DNA of 64,000 nt from Terebella lapidaria. Taxonomy: Eukaryota; Annelida; Polychaeta; Terebellida; Terebellidae. Under the pieces are notes generated by a model. That model had not been told where the DNA came from. It searched no databases and saw only the letters and a list, made by a program, of their open reading frames with translations. The stretch lies in the NCBI GenBank assembly GCA_949152475.1, contig OX424568.1, positions 14,545,667 to 14,609,666 on the forward strand, read 5' to 3'. The translations under genes were made by a program, and so were the position numbers. Positions 23,844 to 60,863 of the stretch are shown one piece after another; position 1 is the first letter of the stretch; each line of letters begins with the position of its first letter.

Positions 23844-26800
23844 CTAGAGCTTTTCAAAGGCGCGTTGGAACAGATGTGCTTTGAGTTGTTTTTTGAAGGC
23901 CTCTCGATTCGAACACAGTTTGAGTGACTCCGGAAGTCCATTCCACCACTTAGGTGCAACAACGCTAAAAGCCCTGTCCCCATAGCTTCGAAGATTCGTG
24001 CGCGGAACTCTCAACAAGGAGGCAGTGCTGGACCGAAGGTGTCGACCTGGTGCATATGGAGTTAGCAGCTCACACAAGTAGTCAGGAGCCTCACCATGTA
24101 ACGCCTTCCACGTGAGAAGCAGCACCTTAAATTCAATCCTCTGTCTGACCGGAAGCCAGTGGAGGTCAAACAATGCCTGTGTTATGTGGTCTGATTTGCG
24201 GAGGTGCATGACTGTTCTGGCAGCTGCATTTTGCACCAGTTGAAGCCTCTGAAGCTGTTGGCTGGATATTCCTGCAAGCAGCGAATTGCCATTGTCCAAC
24301 CGCGACGTGACGAAGGCATGGATGAGAGTTTTCACAGATTCCTTTGAGAGCACATTCCTCACATTGTTGATGTTCCTCAGATGGTAGAAGGCACTACTGC
24401 AAATTGATGATACCTGTGTGTCCATCTTCAAGGTGTTATCAAACATCACCCCTAAATTTCGGGCTGATTTCACTGCTTGAACAGCACAGTCCCCAATGGT
24501 GATACAATTGGTTGTGATCTTATGCTGCTGCTGTAGAGATGACAACACAAGAAACTCTGTTTTTTCGTTGTTGAGCTTTAATTTGTTTTGTGCCATCCAC
24601 ACTCTGATTTCCTCGATGCAAGCTTCCACGCGAGTCAACGCCACGTCCTCATCTCCAGACACAGATACGTCAAAAGAGAGGTAGATTTGCGTGTCGTCTG
24701 CATAAAGATGTACATCAAGACCATGTCTCTTACATATACCAGCTACTGGTGCTGAGTATATAATAAAGAGCTGGGGTCCTAACACGGAACCTTGAGGCAC
24801 TCCAAACAAGAGATCAATTGAATTTGCGACGGTATGTTTGACGATCACAGCTTGAGAGCGATCTGCAAGATATGACCGGACCCAGGCCAGTACCACTCCT
24901 TGGAAACCACATTGCTGGAGGCGTTGGATAAGGATATTATGGTCCACCGTATCGAATGCTGCAGATAAATCTAACAGCACCAGATAAACACCACGACGCT
25001 TATCCAAGGAACACAACATGTCATTCTGGACATGCAGCAGGGCAGTTTCTGTACCATGAAACTGCCTGTAGGCTGACTGTAAGGGCTCATAGAGGCGATG
25101 CTGTTTCATGTGGGTAGAGATCCTCCTGGCTACCAGTCTCTCAATCACTTTTGACAGAAACGTCAAATTTGAAACTGGTCTATAGTTTTTCATTTGCTCT
25201 GGGTCAAGTGTTGGTTTTTTCAAAAGAGGCGTTACCAAAGCTTTCTTCATCGAGCATGGAAAAACACCAGTTGCCAGCGACAAGTTGACTACCTTGGTTA
25301 TGACAGGAACAAGCAGTTTTATGTGTTTTTTCAACATCCATGTTGGCAGAGGATCAGACGAGCAACTTTTGGTTGGTGATTCAGTTATGGTCTTCAATAC
25401 CTCATCCTCTGTGGCTGTGGAGAACGTTGCAAGAACAGAAACATCAGAGAGATCAAGACATGCCGATTGGTCTAGTTCACCTGTTACTACATGTAGGTTA
25501 CGGCGTATCTGCTCAATTTTCTCCGTGAAGTAGGTGTTGAATCTGTTTGCGAGTTCTACTGGATCATCATGAAGTGGCAATTTGGACTTTTCTTTTCTTG
25601 GAAGAAGATCGTCAATGATCCGGAAGAGACTCTTTTGATTCTTGCAGCCATTTATTAGCTCAGAGTAGTATTCAGATTTAGAGGCCCTGATCATGGTGTG
25701 AAGTTCGTTCCGACCCTGTTGAAAAAGCAGCCTGTCTGACTTCAGTCTAGTTCGTCTCCATTTCCGTTCCAGCTTTCTGCTGGCTTTCTTCAGAGCTGTA
25801 ATCTTGTCATTGTACCAAGGTGCCTTTGGTCTACTCGTGATGACTCGTGTTCTCACGGGTGCATGGCGTTCCAAGATGTCGGCAAGTGTACTGTTGTATT
25901 GATCAACTAGTTCATCAATGTCATCAGAGGGCGAACAGAGCAGTGGACTATCGATGATGTCCTCCACAAAAGCATCACTGTCAATGGATTTTGTTTTCCG
26001 GTACACAAGCTCCTCTTTTGGGAACGATGGCTTTACTAGGTTCAGGGAGCAGTGTACTGCCGCATGGTCTGTGACGAAGCATGGTGTAGATACATCTTTC
26101 ACTATGTCATCAGCTTTCCTGCTGATAACTAAGTCGAGCGTGTGACCGCCAATGTGAGTTGTAGTGGTGCAATGCTGTGTCATCTGAACAGTTTCTAACA
26201 GACTCAACAATTGCCTTGTATCCTTGTCATCCGCGATATCCAAGTGAATGTTAAAGTCCCCCACAATAAGGAGATTATGTTTACACATTGCAATATCAGT
26301 TAGAAATTCAGCGAATTCAGTGAAAAACTGAGATTTGGTGAAATTGTTCGTGGATGAAGGTGGTGGGCGGTAGATTACTGCCAGTTTGATCACAGAACAC
26401 TTGTACTTCAAGTCACATATCATGCTTTCAAATGTCACGGCATCATAATTTGATTTCGGTCCACTAACAAGAGAACTCTTGTGAATGACTGCTACCCCTC
26501 CACCGGTTGTGGGTCTTGGGATGTGCACCAGATCATATCCAGTCGGAACAAGGCCAGCAATTGTCTGGTTATGCCTATCACCATCAGACAGCCATGTCTC
26601 TGTGAGAGCCATTATGTCAATATTGTGTTCCATGATGTAATCAACAATCAAGTCAGTCTTGTTACATACTGATTGCGCATTCAATAGGCATATACTTGTA
26701 AACAAATCCCGTTTCTTGTTTACAAACACAGGTGGCCTTGGCCTTGCTTTTGACTGTCCGCCTCTACACCCCCTATGTGTAGGTGATTTAGAGCATATTC

Positions 26801-26957
26801 CAAGTCTTCTCAGTTTGAGAAGTATGTCCAGTGTAACACTAGTAGCATTGTTTGAATGTCTCAGCATGCTGAGTTCTCCTCTACTGTACCTTAGTCGAGA
26901 CATGGCAGCAAAACACAAACACAGGCACAACAATGAAAAAATCAATGAACCATTCAT
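23844..26957 (-). CDS. LINE ORF2: endonuclease and reverse transcriptase
   Basis: An uninterrupted frame of 1037 codons. Residues about 87-305 form an AP-type endonuclease: LLNAQS (N93), ALTETWL (E120), YRPP (196-199), GDFN (233-236) and TDH (296-298). Reverse-transcriptase blocks follow: NYRPVSNL (591-598), LLDLSAAFD (661-669), GVPQGSVLGP (719-728) and the active-site YADD (752-755), then a C-terminal region ending in the usual KAHLFQRAF. The enzyme would nick target DNA and copy its RNA into it. The first 18 residues are hydrophobic; the Met at residue 19 (codon at 26903) is the more natural start, giving 1019 aa. All expected catalytic residues are present, so the copy looks young and potentially active. 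Confidence 0.93.
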   Translation of the reverse strand: MNGSLIFSLLCLCLCFAAMSRLRYSRGELSMLRHSNNATSVTLDILLKLRRLGICSKSPTHRGCRGGQSKARPRPPVFVNKKRDLFTSICLLNAQSVCNKTDLIVDYIMEHNIDIMALTETWLSDGDRHNQTIAGLVPTGYDLVHIPRPTTGGGVAVIHKSSLVSGPKSNYDAVTFESMICDLKYKCSVIKLAVIYRPPPSSTNNFTKSQFFTEFAEFLTDIAMCKHNLLIVGDFNIHLDIADDKDTRQLLSLLETVQMTQHCTTTTHIGGHTLDLVISRKADDIVKDVSTPCFVTDHAAVHCSLNLVKPSFPKEELVYRKTKSIDSDAFVEDIIDSPLLCSPSDDIDELVDQYNSTLADILERHAPVRTRVITSRPKAPWYNDKITALKKASRKLERKWRRTRLKSDRLLFQQGRNELHTMIRASKSEYYSELINGCKNQKSLFRIIDDLLPRKEKSKLPLHDDPVELANRFNTYFTEKIEQIRRNLHVVTGELDQSACLDLSDVSVLATFSTATEDEVLKTITESPTKSCSSDPLPTWMLKKHIKLLVPVITKVVNLSLATGVFPCSMKKALVTPLLKKPTLDPEQMKNYRPVSNLTFLSKVIERLVARRISTHMKQHRLYEPLQSAYRQFHGTETALLHVQNDMLCSLDKRRGVYLVLLDLSAAFDTVDHNILIQRLQQCGFQGVVLAWVRSYLADRSQAVIVKHTVANSIDLLFGVPQGSVLGPQLFIIYSAPVAGICKRHGLDVHLYADDTQIYLSFDVSVSGDEDVALTRVEACIEEIRVWMAQNKLKLNNEKTEFLVLSSLQQQHKITTNCITIGDCAVQAVKSARNLGVMFDNTLKMDTQVSSICSSAFYHLRNINNVRNVLSKESVKTLIHAFVTSRLDNGNSLLAGISSQQLQRLQLVQNAAARTVMHLRKSDHITQALFDLHWLPVRQRIEFKVLLLTWKALHGEAPDYLCELLTPYAPGRHLRSSTASLLRVPRTNLRSYGDRAFSVVAPKWWNGLPESLKLCSNREAFKKQLKAHLFQRAFEKL

Positions 26958-27187
26958 GGTTCAGTGATCACCATTGTCCAATCTCTCACAATTTGAAATC
27001 AGTTTGTGACTAATATTTCTATGTAAAAGATATCCAACGGTCATATATTCGATCAAATGAATCCCAGGATGTTTAGAGACATCATGGTACCAAATTCTCA
27101 CTGTAACTCGCGAAATAGCCAGAGAAATTCAAACTATGAATGAGAGTTCACAAAAGCACACTGGCAGCATAAGCGCACAATTCCGAT

Positions 27188-34005: not shown

Positions 34006-35201
34006 CTAGTAATGGGTAGATGCACCATTCAAGTTTACACATTCCAGACACCGTCTCCGCATCGAAACAACAGTGTTCCGGATCACCGCTCGAGGAATAT
34101 CGTTCCACTCCTCCTGGAGGGCTGTGGTTAGGGTTGCAACGTTTGTTACGGCGGGATTTCGGTTCCTGACCCTTGTCCCCAACATTGCCCAAATGTTTTC
34201 TATGGGATTAAGGTCAGGAGACATCGCTGGCCACTCTATCCGCTGAATATTGTTGTCCTCAAGGAACGTCGTAATGATCCTGGCTCTGTGTGGAGCAGCG
34301 TTGTCGTCCATAAGAAGGAACCTGTCACCCACACGGTTTCTCAATGGTAGCACAATGGTCTGAAGAACACTGTCACGGTAGTAACGTGAGTTCATGTTGC
34401 CTTGAACGATGTGCAAATCAGTTCGCTGAGTCACGGAAATTCCGGCCCACACCATTACGGATCCACCACCCCAGCGGTTAACAGAAACTGAATATTGAGG
34501 GTTGTTACGTTGTCCAACACCTCTCCACACACGTAAACCACCATCAGCATGGTCCACAGTGAAAGGGACTCATCCGTGAAGAGCACGTTGGACCACTGTG
34601 CAACGTTCCAACGAGAGCGTGCCCTGGCCCACTCAAGACGACGTCTCCTGTGATCAGCTGACATCCTTGGAACAACACGCGGTACACGAGAGTGAAGACC
34701 AACTTCTCTGAGTCTGTTACGTACAGTTTGGGAGCTGATTGTGATGCGTGTAGCTTGCCTGAACTCATTCTGGATCCGTCGTGCACTCTGGAATGGGTTT
34801 CGTCGAGCCGAAAGCGTCAGATACCGGTCATCCCCAGCAGTTGTGGCCCTTGGTCTACCAGAACCACGACGTCTGCGATAATCCTGGGTCTCCTGGAATC
34901 GTCCCCAAACATTCCTGATGCAGCTTTGACTGACCCCTAACTCGATGGCCACATCACGCTGAGTTCTGCCATCCTGGAGCATCTGACATGCTCTCGCACA
35001 CTGTACTTCACTCAAATGCACTCTAACACTTATCACACACACAACAAAGCAAAATCCCATAAAAAAATTCACTGTCAAATGCATTTTCGTGTTTTGAAGC
35101 ATTGCCCTGGGAATGCATGTGAACAGTGATTTTGTACAGAGTTTCACACTCGAGCCTGTTGAGCAAAAACCAATGAAGCATGACAAACAAAACATACCCA
35201 A
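34006..35201 (-). pseudogene. Tc1-like DD34E transposase, one frameshift
   Basis: The upstream frame (35201-34455) carries the paired helix-turn-helix region (QMLQDGRTQRDVAIELGVSQ, then a GRPR linker) and the first catalytic Asp in LFTDES. The downstream frame (34557-34006) carries the second Asp in LLMDDNAAPH and the Glu in SPDLNPIENIW. Thirty-four residues separate the last two, so the class is DD34E. The frames overlap and change at about 34565-34570, where one base seems missing just after the TDES codons. Apart from that break the gene looks complete. The real start is probably downstream of 35201, near the MHLTVNFF or MLQDG Met codons. Confidence 0.9.
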
Positions 35202-35315
35202 TAATTGAGCTCAATTATCAACAAAAGTGTACACATAACACAGAAAAATATTTTTCTCAATTTGGTTGAAAATTGTAACAAAGATTTCTTGAGTCTTATT
35301 TTTTTTTGACCAGTG
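35113..35315. repeat. Tc1-like element, right inverted repeat
   Basis: Imperfect inverted copy of 33735-33935. It ends in GACCAGTG next to the TA target duplication at 35316-35317. Confidence 0.85.
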
Positions 35316-53567: not shown

Positions 53568-53575
53568 GTTCTAAG
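53568..53575. other. Left target-site duplication of P-like element
   Basis: GTTCTAAG here recurs at 60855-60862 on the other side, if the terminal G at the right is counted with the flank; otherwise 7 bp (TTCTAAG). P-superfamily elements make 8-bp duplications. Confidence 0.8.
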
Positions 53576-53606
53576 CATAGACCTGAAGGAGAGGGATAGC
53601 CGACTG
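53576..53606. repeat. P-like element, left 31-bp terminal inverted repeat
   Basis: Starts CATAGACCTGAAGG and ends GATAGCCGACTG. It matches the inverted right end at 30 of 31 positions (CGACTG here, CAACTG there). Confidence 0.92.
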
Positions 53607-53660
53607 TGACGTCACTCACACTATCTGCAGTTTGCGTATCACAATTATTTGGGGGCGCCC

Positions 53661-53683
53661 CCATCGGTCGTCATAGAAAACTG
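53661..53683. repeat. P-like element, left subterminal inverted repeat
   Basis: CCATCGGTCGTCATAGAAAA followed by CTG, inverted at 60763-60785 with one mismatch. It lies 85 bp from the left end and about 88 bp before the transposase start codon. Likely a transposase-binding or promoter site. Confidence 0.85.
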
Positions 53684-53770
53684 ACATTCCTCATTTATCG
53701 CCCACAAGGTCAACATAAACAAGTGGTTCGTCTTTTGATATTTCGTTGGATTTCGTTTATATTCGTTTTC

Positions 53771-56700
53771 ATGGGTGGTGACCATTGTTGTGTTGTCGGA
53801 TGTCACAACAATAGTATTAAAACTAAAGGCACGGGTGTCAGTTATGTGAGATTCCCGAAGAAAGGCGTGAGCCAGATCCAGGATTCATGGAGGGCTAAAC
53901 TGATAGCGGTCGTAGCCAGATGTGACAAAAGCTTCAACCCGGACACCATGAAAATCTGCACCACGCATTTTGAGCGTACATCCCTGCTATTCCATGGTAA
54001 GAAAATAATAACTCAAAGTAGATTTAGTTGTCGACAGGTACTTGCATCAGGAGATAGAGATAATGAAGCCTACAGCTATTCAATGTATTACAATGACATT
54101 ACAGTCTACGGTACCTATACATTTTGATAATATGTTTAGTATAGCATATTTAATATAACCATGAGGAAGCAGCAATTAATTATCAGGTTAATTTGAGTTT
54201 ACTTCTGACAACTAGTTTAAATTACCGGTAATATCGCACCGACTCCCCCCCCCCCCCCATCAATAAAATTCACAGGTGGTGGTTTTAAGTTAGTCCCTGG
54301 CAGTCTACCAACGTTGAACATGCCCCAAAAGAGTATTGTTACACCACAGCCAATACCTAGACAGATGCCAGTGAGATATATTTAAGAGAATAATTAGCAT
54401 ACAATATTTATTTCAGATACATGTGCTGTTTGTTGTTTTGTGAGTTCACTTCCCATGTTCATATTTTGCCTTCCACATTTTAACTGTTGTGTTTTAGCTG
54501 TATTCAAACATGATTAAACATATTATATATTTCACACAGATTTCTACAAGATTTTAAAAACTAGACGATTGTCCGAACTTTGTTCGAGGGATACAATTAT
54601 TAAACAGATAAAAGTCTCCTAATCACACTTCACAAAAGCCTGTTGCAAGTATCGTTGCTATATTGTCATGAAACATCTACATGTACATACAACATTAAGT
54701 TTCTATCTGTATTGTCAACATGTTCAGTGATATAGGGTCATAACAAAAATAGCATACCATTATCATACTTAATTTAGTGACATTCATTTATTTTCTGACA
54801 GAAAGTAAGGCCCCCTCCAGTAGTACCAGAGAAGGTCAGCTACTACAACCTGGATGAGGTGCGGCGTGATGCGGCGGCAAATGCTGGTCGATGGACGGTG
54901 TTGAAGTCATCCGAGTCTATCCTAGTATTGGGGTTGTACGAGCATGATCATGGGCAACTGACGAGAAAAGTTACCATCAGAGATGATTTGAGCACTTTGG
55001 TCAATTTTGGAGGTAATGATATGGTAACAGATATGCAATATATGAAATAATATTACATTTTCCTTTCTTTATATTATATGGGCGATACAGAAACAAAGTC
55101 ATTCACATTCACAGTATTTTTATGACTATACATGTAATCTAGATGTAGTTATATCATTATGAATATCAATTCAAAGTTTCTGTAGGTAGTATCTATCAGG
55201 CAGGCATTGTTCACAAAATATATAATAGTGATCTTATACTACATGTACAATCATTTGTCTTTGCACAACATACACCTTTTGCTTTGTGATGTTTAAACAA
55301 CCTTGTCATTTACAGAGGTAACAGTGAACAGAAGCTGGTGTCTTGAGAAGCAGCCCCTCAAGATCTTTCTGCGCTCTGTCGACGACCTTCGTAAATGTGA
55401 TGGCATTTGTGATCCACGCTTCCAAGACCTCCACTGTGGGCAAGCTTACAGATTCCTGAGTACAATCATCAGTGATGGCAAGCCTGTCTCAACATCAGTG
55501 ATGCGGTCTAAGTCATGTGAAGGAGCCGTGACAGCAGATCACTCTCGATGTCCCCCTTGTGAAAAACTACTTGCAGTGATGGAAGGTTTACACAGTGGCT
55601 CCCAATCTCAATCAGTCACAGTTCACCCGAAGACGCCATTGTCAAATTTGTCACGTCAGCAACTGGTTCGCGAAGTCAAAACGAGTAGGGCTAAAGTCCA
55701 GAGCCTCAAATCGAAGATCAAGTCTTTGAATATCTCGCTGCATGGGGTGGCCGTGTCAACAGAAGTCAGTGAAGGGCTTACCAGCGTCATCGACAATCAC
55801 ATTGACAAGGAAAATGAGATGATGTCACTCTTCTGGAGCGAACAGAAGAAAGCTTTTTCATGCCACACAAATGGTATGAGATGGCATCCCATGATGATCA
55901 GATTTGGGATTTTCCTCCACTATCACAGTTCTCGTGCCTACGATGCTCTACGTGAGTCCGGTGTGTTACGACTCCCAAATAAATCAACACTCAAGGACTA
56001 CACCAATGTTATCCAACCCCGTGCTGGCTTCCAGCCACATGTATTCAAGGTAATTTTAGTGACTGTACTAGAGTGTTAGGATGCAGGCATGTAATGGACT
56101 AATTGTCCATGGAACATCTACAGTAACATACTAACACTGATGAAAAAACATCAAAAACTATTGTGTATTGATCCAGTGAGTAGTATTCCTTATTGAAAAT
56201 CCATAATATGCCATATGTCACACTACAGGAACTTCAACAGCAATGCTCCAGTCTACCTGAGGACAAAAAGTTTGTAGCCTTACTACACGATGAGATGAAG
56301 CTCCGGTCTGACCTGGTCTATGACAGAAGGAGTGGCGAGGTGGTGGGTTTTGTTAACCCAGCCAGTTGGACCTTCGACAAGGTATGTACCACATATAAAT
56401 ATCTTGAAATTAATTCTACTGGATTGCTTTTGAAGATACTTGGACTTTTTCGCTCCATACACACTATTAGTGACGGTGGCATGATATATTATTGCAATTT
56501 GTTGCAGGATCTGTGTGATGAAATTGCATCGTACGTCTTGGTCTTCATGGTCATCGGGTTAAATAGCCATATAAAGATGAGCATCGGGTACATCGCGACA
56601 AAGACTGCGACTGGTGGCGAACTTTTTCCTCTCATGTGGAAGGCGGTATCGTACCTGGAAATCGTCTGTGGTCTCAAGGTATAGACATGTTCCATGTGAT

Positions 56701-58459
56701 ATGTGTACAGATATATAAATAAATTTATTTCAAAGTATATTTATATTAAATTTGTTGTAGGTGATTTCCTCAACTAGTGATAAAGGATCACCTAATATGA
56801 AGCTGTACAAGCTACACAAGCTGGCACACAATGAACCAGGCACCATCACCTACAAGGCTCTCAATCGCTTCGCCCCAGCCGATGAGCAGAGATACCTGTA
56901 CTTCATCTCCGACCCACCTCATCTCATTAAAACGATACGCAACAACGTGCAAAAATCCCAACCCGGTGGAACGAGATATCTATGGGTAATATGGATATTT
57001 TGTTATGTTCATTGTTCTTGTGCAATAATACATGTAAATCCTCCACTAAAATGCCAAAAAAAAATTGTGCAATTTTGTCATGTTCTCCACTGTCATATCA
57101 AACTGACAATAAATTTAATTACTCCTTCACTTTTTTTCAAGAACCAGGACAAGTACATTTTGTGGTCTCATGTGTATCGTCTGTACTCGGATGACACGAG
57201 CAAGGAGCTTTACCGAACCAAACTGACGTACGACCACGTAAACCTTACGCCTTCGTCTACAATGAGTGTCCGGCTTGCAGCACAGGTAACATTCAACTGT
57301 AACTTTATCGAGATTGTACACACTAGAAATTTAAAATCATGTAGCCGTTTTTACTCGCTGCACTATTTTTTTGGTATGTAAACAATATTTATTGGATTGA
57401 AAGACATAATTCCACGACGTTGCTACACTATTTTTGATACTGCATCAATATGCTTGATGTTCATCTATTCAATAACTTTGCAGGTCCTCAGCAGGTCTGT
57501 ATCACAGGTGATGTTGCAATACTACTCTCCCGAGATGGATGAAACCGCCAAGTTCTTCGGGCTATGTAACATATTTTTCGACTGTCTGAACGTCAGATCA
57601 ATGCGAGAGGGAGGCTTCAAGCGGAACCCTGATCTGTCCCCTTATCGATCTGTAGAAGACCCTCGGTTTCAGGTAATTTGTGGCATGTTTTTTTTTTATC
57701 AACTGTGTCAGTAAGTACTGCACGAAATCGCGAAAATTAATGCCCATTGAATGTATTCTTATTCTTTCAGTTCTTGAGCGAGTTTGTGACCTATCTTGAC
57801 AAGTGGTGGCAAGCTATTGTCGAGCGAGAGGGGTACTCGAAGACTGAAAAAAACAAGATGTTCATTTCATTGCAGACTTATGATGGCATTGTTATGACAG
57901 GTAGATAGCTTCCACATGCATGTTGTCTAATGACTATAACTGGTGTTCAAAGGCATATCAAATACACTCATGAATCTGTTTCAAACAGAGATCTTCATTT
58001 ATTAAACATTTTTTAACGGATATCCATTTATATTCTTTTTTTTTTTGCTTTACAGTCCATGCGTTCACAGAAGCCACTCAGTATCTTCTCTCCAAGGGGG
58101 TCCCATACGTTCTCAGCAACGACTTCTGTCAGGACCCCCTAGAGGAGCACTTTGGGCGCCACAGGGGACTGGCCCTTCGCGACACCAACCCTAATCTTCA
58201 CCAGTTTGGGTAAGAATACAAGGATATAATAAATAGTGGTGAATGACATATCCAGTGTTAGTAGAAATGAGTATGTTTTTTTTTTCTCAACAAATATATT
58301 TATGTACCTTATATATTTGTTCACAGTTATCAAGAAAACAAGTTGCGGTTGCAGCGCAGCCTGGCCTTCAAGTTCACTCCTAAAGGGAACACGAGCAGTG
58401 GCGGGAAGCGCAAGGTGGTAATCAGCCACAGCCCAATCAAGAAACTAAAGCGACATTGA
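53771..58459 (+). CDS. THAP-domain P-type transposase, 12 exons
   Basis: Exons 53771-53996, 54276-54370, 54802-55012, 55316-56049, 56229-56381, 56508-56678, 56761-56985, 57142-57285, 57484-57672, 57771-57900, 58056-58209, 58327-58459; all introns are GT-AG, phases fit, and 854 aa result. Residues 1-75 are a THAP C2CH zinc finger (CCVVGCHNN, SYVRFPKKG, SWRAKL, KICTTHF), a DNA-binding domain. A LVPGSLPTL box follows. About residues 290-325 form a Lys-rich predicted coiled coil. The RNase-H-like core has candidate D443 (LLHDEMKL), D537 (STSDKGSPN) and E789 (DPLEEHFG). Between the last two, FISDPPHLIKTIRNN (from 578) marks the GTP-binding insertion of P transposases. The C-terminus is basic (KKLKRH). 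Only 65 residues follow the Glu, fewer than in usual P-type proteins. The start is the Met directly before the zinc finger. Confidence 0.9.
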
Positions 58460-58618
58460 ACGATATACATAATAGAAGGAATTTTGTGAATCTGAAACCG
58501 ACGTCATGATGAATAACACATTTTTTCAAGTTTTAATGCAGGCTATGATTGTTGTTTCTGCCATATTGTGTGGAGATTGTCTGTGGAGATTGTCTGCAAA
58601 TTTCATAACAATTCTCAG

Positions 58619-58624
58619 AATAAA
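58619..58624 (+). promoter_or_regulatory. Polyadenylation signal for transposase gene
   Basis: AATAAA 160 bp after the stop codon. Another AATAAA lies at about 59028 (TATAATAAACATC). Confidence 0.5.
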
Positions 58625-59186
58625 AAAGGGCCTACAAGAATCCTCATGTCTTGATGTTTACATGATTGTGTGAACTGACTCCACCTTGAGCTCTCTGCAA
58701 GGATATTTTGTATTCAATATCAATTTGCGAACCTTGTTTCCAGATTATCACTGAATATCTGTTTCAGTTCTGATTGTATAAATATTGTCTCCAGCCTAAG
58801 TAACTGAAGCAGTTATTTTGTCATCCATGAACTTAAATGTTACATGTAAGAAATCTATATGTTGTCATATGCATGAAATGTTGTCTGAATAACTATTCAA
58901 GTAATGTGTGAGACTGTTCATAAAATGTTCTTTTGGACCAGTGATCTGCATTGAAATTGTTACTCATTTTGGTAATCTACTGTGGACATTCACCGGTACT
59001 GTGTGTCATACAGCGTACTCTATGTATAATAAACATCATGAAATCAATTGGTGTAGTCCTGTAATAATTTGATGAAATCAATTTGCCTTTGTCTCGGTTT
59101 GATGAAATCATTTATTTATGTCACTTCACATCACATATTGTGATATACAAGTGCCCACTAAGTCACTAGGTATCAGTTTCAACCTG

Positions 59187-59212
59187 CATTTATTCAAAGC
59201 TTTCTATTTATT
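59187..59212 (-). promoter_or_regulatory. Polyadenylation signals for second element gene
   Basis: On the minus strand AATAAA occurs as TTTATT at about 59189 and 59207, 85-110 bp beyond the stop codon of the minus-strand gene. The two convergent transcripts would end close to each other. Confidence 0.5.
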
Positions 59213-59295
59213 GACAAATAAACATATCCGAAACAAGTAGTACACCATCAATCTCCTGATAATATTATGGTAACACCAACACACATGATGATACA

Positions 59296-60719
59296 TTAGT
59301 CATCTTCGGCTTTAGTAACACTCTTTCGCAAAGCCTTTTGTTTCTTAACTGAGTTCGTTTTCTGAGATCGAATTTCTAAAAACTGCCTGCATTTCGCATG
59401 GCACCTTAAATGGAAATAGAGCTGCAATACAAACAACAAAACCTTCTCTTGAACGTCGGTCTCCACGCTCGAGTGATAGGTACAGGCATAAAATAGTGAC
59501 ACAATATCATCCCTGCTACAAATTGTATCAATAAACGCCTGTAAAGAAACCTCAATAAATGAGAATTGTTCTCTGAAAACTGACTCGCACAATACAAAAA
59601 ATGATTTCATGTCGACTGTTGGTTCACATAATCCTCCTCTTGTTTTGGCAAGAATTAATTTGTTTGTGAACATTTTCTCATCACTGATCATCATTCTTGA
59701 GATAATAGGTGATTGTGGAAATTTATGCTTACATCGGAATAAAACAAAACCCCCAACATATACAACAATGTCCCGTTCATCATCTGTGATTTCAGCAGGA
59801 GACGAAGGTGTACATGGGAGCTGTCTGAAGTTGATACGGATGAGAGTTTCCATGGCTTGGAAGGCGATGAGAGAGGACAGTTGTGGATGATTCAGTAAGG
59901 TGTTAATAGAGGGTACGATCTGTTCCAGGGCGCGATGAAATTCTCCCCACGTCTTCTCTATGCATGATGGCGAGAATACACCTTCGATGATGCATTCGTT
60001 GAGTGGTGATAATTTCACCAACAGTTCATCCACTGCAATATTCATAGAGAAATATACTACATATTTGCAAATGAAAAAAAATACAACACGATATTTTGAT
60101 ATCCAGCTAGCAGAAAAAATACATGTCATATATCTTCGCTCACCATTGACAAATGAGAGCACATCTTCAACACTAAATGGTGCCAGCTGCAGGACTGGAT
60201 CATTGCTGACATCTCTGAGGATCTCTTGCAGCGTATCATTTGTCAGTGTCTTCTTTGGGGGTGGTTTAGGGAGAGTTGCACGTGAACTTTTCCTCTTACG
60301 TCGATTATCTGTTGACTTACTGCCAGACTTGGGTGAGGAAACCTGCCCCTGGTCCTGGTCATTTTGTATGGCAGCTGGCACCAGGTCATTGATACTACCA
60401 TCTCCTTTGACCTCCTCAGTGTCCAGTTGCTGGAATAAAATCAAGAGGAATAACACTAAATGGGCATCCAACTGCCCGTTCAGATCAAATGATGTATCAT
60501 ATTACAGATCTGGATGTATCTCGACGCAACGACAATAGCAATCCAAGCTAATAAACACCCTATTATCGCCCAAATCACCCAGTTGTCAAGATCATTTAAC
60601 AAGACTCAAACTTCCCATCATCACTGAATACAACACAGAAATATAAAAATATGCCTTTATATTATAGCAGAAGGTGTTCCTACCTGAGAAGCCAGGAGTA
60701 GATCGTCGTAAATGTCCAT
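59296..60719 (-). CDS. Second gene of P-like element: possible detached transposase C-terminal domain
   Basis: Exons, in transcription order, 60719-60684, 60429-60144 and 60032-59296; introns are GT-AG (CAG/GTAGG, TTCCAG, AATG/GTGAG, TTGCAG), phases fit, 352 aa. It starts MDIYDDLLLASQ, has an acidic N-terminus and a basic nuclear-localisation-like stretch (NRRKRKSS). A mostly helical body follows. A later block reads DIVVYVGGFVLFRCKHKF..., then AKTRGGLCEPT and VFREQF. This resembles the conserved YIAGYVV(R/K)KL ... GGL.xPS block found after the catalytic Glu in many P-type transposases, which the plus-strand protein lacks. The C-terminus is Lys-rich. I infer a transposase partner or regulator; the homology is pattern-based and unverified. 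The second intron is 111 nt without in-frame stop. Confidence 0.75.
60033..60143 (-). other. In-frame stopless intron of second gene
   Basis: The donor GTGAGCG at 60143 and acceptor ATTGCAG ending at 60033 give a 111-nt intron, a multiple of three, with no stop in the reading frame. Retention would insert 37 hydrophobic, aromatic-rich residues (including VVFFFICKYVVYF) instead of truncating the protein. Splicing is favoured because the retained segment has intron-like composition, with a pyrimidine-rich stretch. Confidence 0.7.
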
Positions 60720-60762
60720 TTCCAAAAACCAAACAAAAACGAACCGTGCATGGGGGAAACCC

Positions 60763-60785
60763 CAGTTTTCTATGACGGCCGATGG
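60763..60785. repeat. P-like element, right subterminal inverted repeat
   Basis: CAGTTTTCTATGACGGCCGA followed by TGG, the inverted copy of 53661-53683. It lies 70 bp from the right end and about 44 bp upstream of the minus-strand start codon. Confidence 0.85.
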
Positions 60786-60824
60786 TGGCGCTGTGCAAAC
60801 AGCCACATATTTCCCGCCATTCAC

Positions 60825-60855
60825 CAGTTGGCTATCCCTCTCCTTCAGGTCTATG
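60825..60855. repeat. P-like element, right 31-bp terminal inverted repeat
   Basis: Inverted copy of 53576-53606, starting CAGTTGGCTATCC and ending AGGTCTATG, followed by the TTCTAAG direct repeat. Confidence 0.92.
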
Positions 60856-60863
60856 TTCTAAGG

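Follow-up and report, generated by a model that had tools for sequence, protein, structure and literature searches.

We analysed a 64-kb stretch of the Terebella lapidaria genome (C15:14545667-14609666; 'the window' below, from a genome of 761.6 Mb in 438 contigs) which contains, at positions 53576-60855, a 7.3 kb element of the P transposon superfamily with two convergent genes. The element is bounded by 31-bp terminal inverted repeats (53576-53606 on the plus strand, 60825-60855 on the minus strand) which are 97% complementary, with 30/31 positions paired, and each of which shows 100% recurrence in other copies. A 7-bp direct repeat, TTCTAAG, lies beside the inverted ends as the target-site duplication (53569-53575 and 60856-60862). 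Gene 1 occupies the left part of the element on the plus strand and encodes a transposase; gene 2, on the minus strand, encodes a separate protein related to the C-terminal domain (CTD) of P transposases. The exon structures of both genes are predictions from splice sites and homology.

Gene 1 and the transposase core

Gene 1 is predicted to run from 53771 to 58459 in 12 exons with GT/AG sites and to encode a stop-free protein of 854 residues. Exon 1 (53771-53996) holds the bulk of a THAP domain (PF05485, residues 6-90; 34.5 bits against a Pfam cut-off of 23.9), the end of which lies in exon 2 (54276-54370). Exon 3 (54802-55012) is followed by exon 4 (55316-56049), containing a helix-turn-helix (HTH)-like stretch that scores 22.9 bits with the P-type HTH family PF12017 (residues 345-404; cut-off 23). 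The N-terminal domain of the RNase H fold (PF21787) is recognised above cut-off at 107 bits. The first catalytic aspartate, D443, is encoded by exon 5 (56229-56381) and, beyond exon 6 (56508-56678), the second, D537, by exon 7 (56761-56985). The GTP-binding insertion (PF21788, residues 584-700; 58.7 bits, above cut-off) starts in exon 7, continues through exon 8 (57142-57285) and ends in exon 9 (57484-57672). Exon 10 (57771-57900) leads to exon 11 (58056-58209), with the catalytic glutamate E789 in the motif QDPLEEHFG, and exon 12 (58327-58459) carries the stop codon. The protein matches the Drosophila P transposase structure 6p5a (chain 6p5a_A) with an E-value of 5e-10, and the catalytic residues D230, D303 and E531 of the Drosophila enzyme align with D443, D537 and E789. 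A spliced, stop-free THAP transposase gene and membership of the P superfamily, both claimed in an original prediction made from this DNA together with the 31-bp inverted ends, are therefore upheld.

The gene 1 protein ends only 61 residues past the catalytic motif and has no detectable CTD. The possibility of a CTD hidden within gene 1 was considered and rejected: a profile of gene 2 finds no match there.

Gene 2 and the separate C-terminal domain

The second spliced gene, also anticipated on the opposite strand, is predicted to consist of three exons encoding a stop-free protein of 352 residues. Exon 1 (60719-60684) carries the start codon, exon 2 (60429-60144) encodes a basic stretch, and exon 3 (60032-59296; 244 full codons and the stop) encodes a helical region and a P-type CTD. 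A Pfam search with the single gene 2 protein returned no domain, and a PDB sequence search only one unrelated match (E 0.21), so that profiles and folds were needed. An AlphaFold2 (AF2) model of exon 3 has a mean predicted local distance difference test (pLDDT) score of 84.8, and its residues 79-224 (window 59359-59796, minus strand) superpose on residues 617-734 of the Drosophila P transposase, with which this part of gene 2 shares the motifs YxxGxV and GGLxxP. In a profile-profile comparison, gene 2 aligns over 137 columns (E 3.9e-12) with a profile of four CTDs that are fused to transposases elsewhere in the same genome (see below). By both profile and fold, gene 2 is a homologue of the transposase CTD.

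Copies and target-site duplications

The left outer 201 bp of the element have 15 matches in the genome, eight of them (the window included) at 95-100% identity; the right outer 201 bp have ten, eight at 96-100%. For either end, matches elsewhere in the genome reach 100%. Over their length, three copies without interruption are 99.5-99.6% identical to that of the window, and the copy on C8 is 98.6% identical over 7.0 kb. The family of the window element comprises eight copies, six of which (window, C16, C14, C3, C2 and C8) have stop-free exons in both genes, the splice sites having been examined in the window copy only. In the C8 copy, exon 4 is interrupted by a 3-base gap and the right end is unmatched at its last bases; the C1 copy is without exons 9-11 of gene 1. 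The C10 copy (C10:1024117-1069159) is an old damaged fragment, the two ends of which are now about 45 kb apart. The near-identity of the copies fits the original suggestion that the element is perhaps still mobile.

Both ends are intact in six copies (window, C16, C14, C2, C1 and C3), which are flanked by six different duplications, each of 7 bp. Recurrence of the termini with different duplications, which had been proposed as a check on the element, is thus observed. Four more elements that could be read at both ends, from families B (two), C and G (one each), likewise have 7-bp duplications, making 10/10 among such elements; among four further family loci that were fetched, L061 was the only one with both ends. 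The flanking repeat was originally given as 7-8 bp, and of this the direct repeat stands with a length of seven. We rejected an 8-bp duplication, which in the window copy needs the ends to be cut one base apart; the other copies have 7 bp and ends of the form CATAG...CTATG.

Inside the terminal repeats lies a further inverted pair of 29 bp (53655-53683, plus strand; 60763-60791, minus strand) which is 93% complementary and carries a GCGCC core at offsets of 79 from the left end and 64 from the right. The corresponding offsets are 80 and 65 in family B and 79 and 64 in family C. In each of families A, B and C the core is 15 bp farther from the left end (79-80 bp) than from the right (64-65 bp). 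The core was not found in the first 150 bp looked at in family G. The two ends of the window element, identical in the outer 31 bp save for the mismatch above, diverge just inside (53606-53615 versus 60810-60818). The gene 1 end carries GTGACGTCAC and the gene 2 end GGCGGGAAA, and these are conserved in families A, B and C (ends of L018, L021 and L016), with GTGATGTCAC in family C. We take the former to be CRE-like and the latter E2F-like, and the difference between the motifs may provide for separate control of the two genes. The family C element also contains strong nested inverted repeats with 46- and 34-bp arms (L016 3844-4011), perhaps another insertion.

Genome-wide pairing of the two genes

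Exon 3 of gene 2 is matched at least 143 times in the genome, with identities of 25-100% (150 of 159 candidates were scored), and exon 4 of gene 1 at least 157 times, 150 of these matches being used (150 of 255 candidates scored). After merging, these gave 130 gene-2 loci and 135 transposase loci. A transposase lies within 15 kb in convergent (tail to tail) orientation at 108/130 gene-2 loci, with a median gap of 3,377 bp; at one locus the two are divergent, at none are they on the same strand, and 21 are without any listed transposase. When the gene-2 loci were rotated along their contigs 200 times, a mean of 1.4 and a maximum of 8 fell near a transposase. Conversely, 22/135 transposase loci are without a gene-2 match at up to 15 kb. 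These counts bear out the proposal of a two-gene lineage of P elements, and exclude gene 2 as a single-copy host gene.

The pairing extends beyond the family of the window element. Gene 2 is found in other copies and in diverged families with its orientation unchanged, and 23 gene-2 sequences sampled from the genome fall into 20 families at 80% identity, 18 of which have a convergent transposase. For L062, a gene-2 family without a listed transposase, the final transposase exons were found on the facing strand; for L063, likewise unlisted, the facing strand holds merely scattered transposase pieces. Over seven families, identities of the transposase (residues after 300) and of gene 2 run in parallel (Mantel r 0.81, a value reached by 11 of 5,040 permutations). 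Four pairs of diverged gene-2 families that are more than 45% identical have pN of 0.31-0.38 and pS of 0.75-0.93, synonymous sites being saturated at such distances. The dN/dS ratios of close gene 2 copies (0.48, 0.53 and 1.39, with one pair having no synonymous change) derive from few changes and carry little information.

Transposase relatives with and without a CTD

A readable catalytic motif is present in 94 of the 120 listed relatives of gene 1 and absent from the other 26. Ninety-two of the 94 end 45-90 residues beyond the motif, the exceptions being P0121, which is longer, and P0034, which is shorter. The gene-2 profile matches only two of the 120, the gene models P0109 and P0121, at their ends, and these are putative fusions. 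A core without a CTD is thus the rule among the listed relatives, the named sources of which include Priapulus, Biomphalaria, Ptychodera, Mytilus, Haliotis, Dreissena and Frankliniella. A C-terminus of the SPxK[KR] type (SP[LM]KK-type) is seen in 29 of the 94 measurable relatives, and in gene 1 at window 58420-58459; it is possibly a nuclear signal or a docking site for the gene 2 protein.

The T. lapidaria genome contains both one-protein and two-protein P lineages, as fused loci occur beside the convergent gene pairs. A genome search with PF22824, which carries the Pfam name THAP9_C, gave 15 places above cut-off, and at the four loci that were read (L064-L067) the CTD and the adjoining transposase pieces share one strand. 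L064 (760-2640, minus strand) has a single frame of 627 residues that runs from RNase H through the GTP domain and the end of RNase H to THAP9_C; P0163 likewise has the last three of these joined in one frame, the end of which is matched by the gene-2 profile. In a midpoint-rooted tree of 29 core sequences (26 picked from the 120 listed relatives, together with those of the window, L064 and P0163), the two fused sequences, L064 and P0163, are separated from all others. P0109 and P0121, which have CTD-like ends, cluster among cores without a CTD.

A transposase probably divided between two genes

The element is probably a P-superfamily transposon that moves by cut and paste and carries two genes, of which gene 1 supplies the core of the enzyme and gene 2 supplies the CTD as a separate protein. 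Both genes would be read inward, each from its own end of the element. The gene 1 product, comprising the THAP DNA-binding domain, the HTH-like stretch and the RNase H fold with its GTP-binding insertion, would bind the element ends, and the CTD protein would then be added in trans at the position of its Drosophila counterpart. The resulting complex would pair the ends, cut, and reinsert the element with a 7-bp stagger. What computation establishes is the layout of the element, its copies with their 7-bp duplications, the linkage of the two genes, the homology and fold of the gene 2 product and the lack of a detectable CTD in gene 1; we infer that the two proteins bind one another, that transposition needs gene 2 and that copies are still moving. 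The Drosophila CTD is described as joined to RNase H through a flexible disordered linker, and as lying between RNase H and the GTP domain of another subunit with contacts to transposon and target DNA (PMC7776569); this linker could have been a cheap site for splitting the gene. With somewhat less assurance, we favour extending this to a broad animal P lineage having an obligate two-subunit transposase, core and CTD being produced from facing genes with their own promoters. The scope of that proposal is the 20 sampled gene-2 families of one genome, together with the cores without a CTD in molluscs, a priapulid, hemichordates and others.

It is also conceivable, if unlikely, that gene 2 is a regulator derived from a CTD which damps transposition, gene 1 being active without one. 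Truncated P products do repress in Drosophila, but those described keep the N-terminal part (PMC7776569), and the 22 of 135 transposase loci with no gene-2 match nearby also speak for this reading. Against this, gene 1 is without a CTD, and so there is nothing in cis for a separate CTD protein to compete with. The prevalence of such cores among the listed relatives and the parallel divergence of the two genes also argue against a regulator, as does the retention of gene 2 in 20 sampled families, where one would expect more frequent loss of a repressor. Less plausible still, gene 2 could encode an accessory factor that has taken on a new task (choosing targets or binding chromatin, for example) in the manner of the second protein beside RAG1, and bear a CTD likeness that is merely ancestral. 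The convergent layout is that of RAGL transposons (PMC7204232), and comparison with chain 6p5a_B leaves about 185 residues of gene 2 unmatched (exons 1-2 and the initial, helical part of exon 3). However, the conserved part is a CTD fold with the Drosophila P motifs, and it is exactly this domain that is missing from the core. The chance that gene 2 is a host gene, or the gene of another element, accidentally captured by or nested in the window copy is negligible. Nothing was found in favour of this reading, and the prevalence of the convergent arrangement across the genome speaks against it, as does the occurrence of gene 2 in other copies and, with unchanged orientation, in diverged families.

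Relocation of the CTD to a second gene would provide a natural test of the role of this domain, and possibly a two-key control of mobility; if the two-gene enzyme is real, movement could be licensed by co-expression of the two genes. The near-identical copies with open genes make direct testing in cells possible. Annotation that retains the transposase alone misses half of such elements.

Other elements in the window

At 23844-26960, on the minus strand, the window also contains a 1,038-codon open frame that encodes endonuclease and reverse transcriptase domains and resembles a non-long terminal repeat (non-LTR) retrotransposon. Tc1/mariner-type transposase domains extend over two overlapping frames at 34006-35210 (minus strand), probably a broken copy.

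Comparison with known systems

Where the accounts drawn on here treat P-type transposases, they describe them as single proteins. No two-gene P element or split P transposase was found in the open-licence literature, which was the scope of the search; Repbase, a possible home of such entries, lies outside it. The interrupted RNase H fold, the DDE residues, the THAP domain and terminal repeats with duplications in the 7-8-bp range place the window element in the P superfamily. With the Drosophila P element it shares the THAP domain, RNase H with a GTP-binding insertion, the catalytic residues and the CTD fold, as well as 31-bp terminal repeats and subterminal sites that are spaced unequally at its two ends (PMC7776569). 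The Drosophila element has a single gene with the CTD on the same protein, a length of 2.9 kb and, as described, 8-bp duplications (PMC7776569), whereas the window element has two convergent genes with the CTD on the second, 7-bp duplications and a length of 7.3 kb. THAP9 and zebrafish Pdre2 are also P-type transposases with a CTD, and their described ends start with CATA (PMC10983969), but each is one protein with its own CTD, with 13-bp terminal repeats and 8-bp duplications. The window element differs from such canonical one-protein systems in having its CTD on the facing gene and a duplication of 7 bp rather than 8. Target duplications of mostly 7 bp are reported for Galileo, a member of the P superfamily in Drosophila, which differs in its long terminal repeats; the account as excerpted mentions no second gene (PMC4168063).

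A parallel in layout is provided by the RAGL (RAG1L-RAG2L) transposons, where a convergent gene pair between terminal repeats has also been retained over long evolutionary periods (PMC7204232). In the descriptions available, RAG1L groups with Transib transposases, duplications are of 5 bp, and RAG2L is a kelch/PHD protein rather than a piece of the transposase (PMC4411706, PMC7204232). The window element has P-type Pfam domains in gene 1, none in gene 2, and a 7-bp duplication. Beside RAG1-RAG2, it would be the second example of an animal transposon whose two genes face each other. If the division of labour proposed here is correct, the parallel would have arisen independently, with a partner protein that broke off from the enzyme itself.
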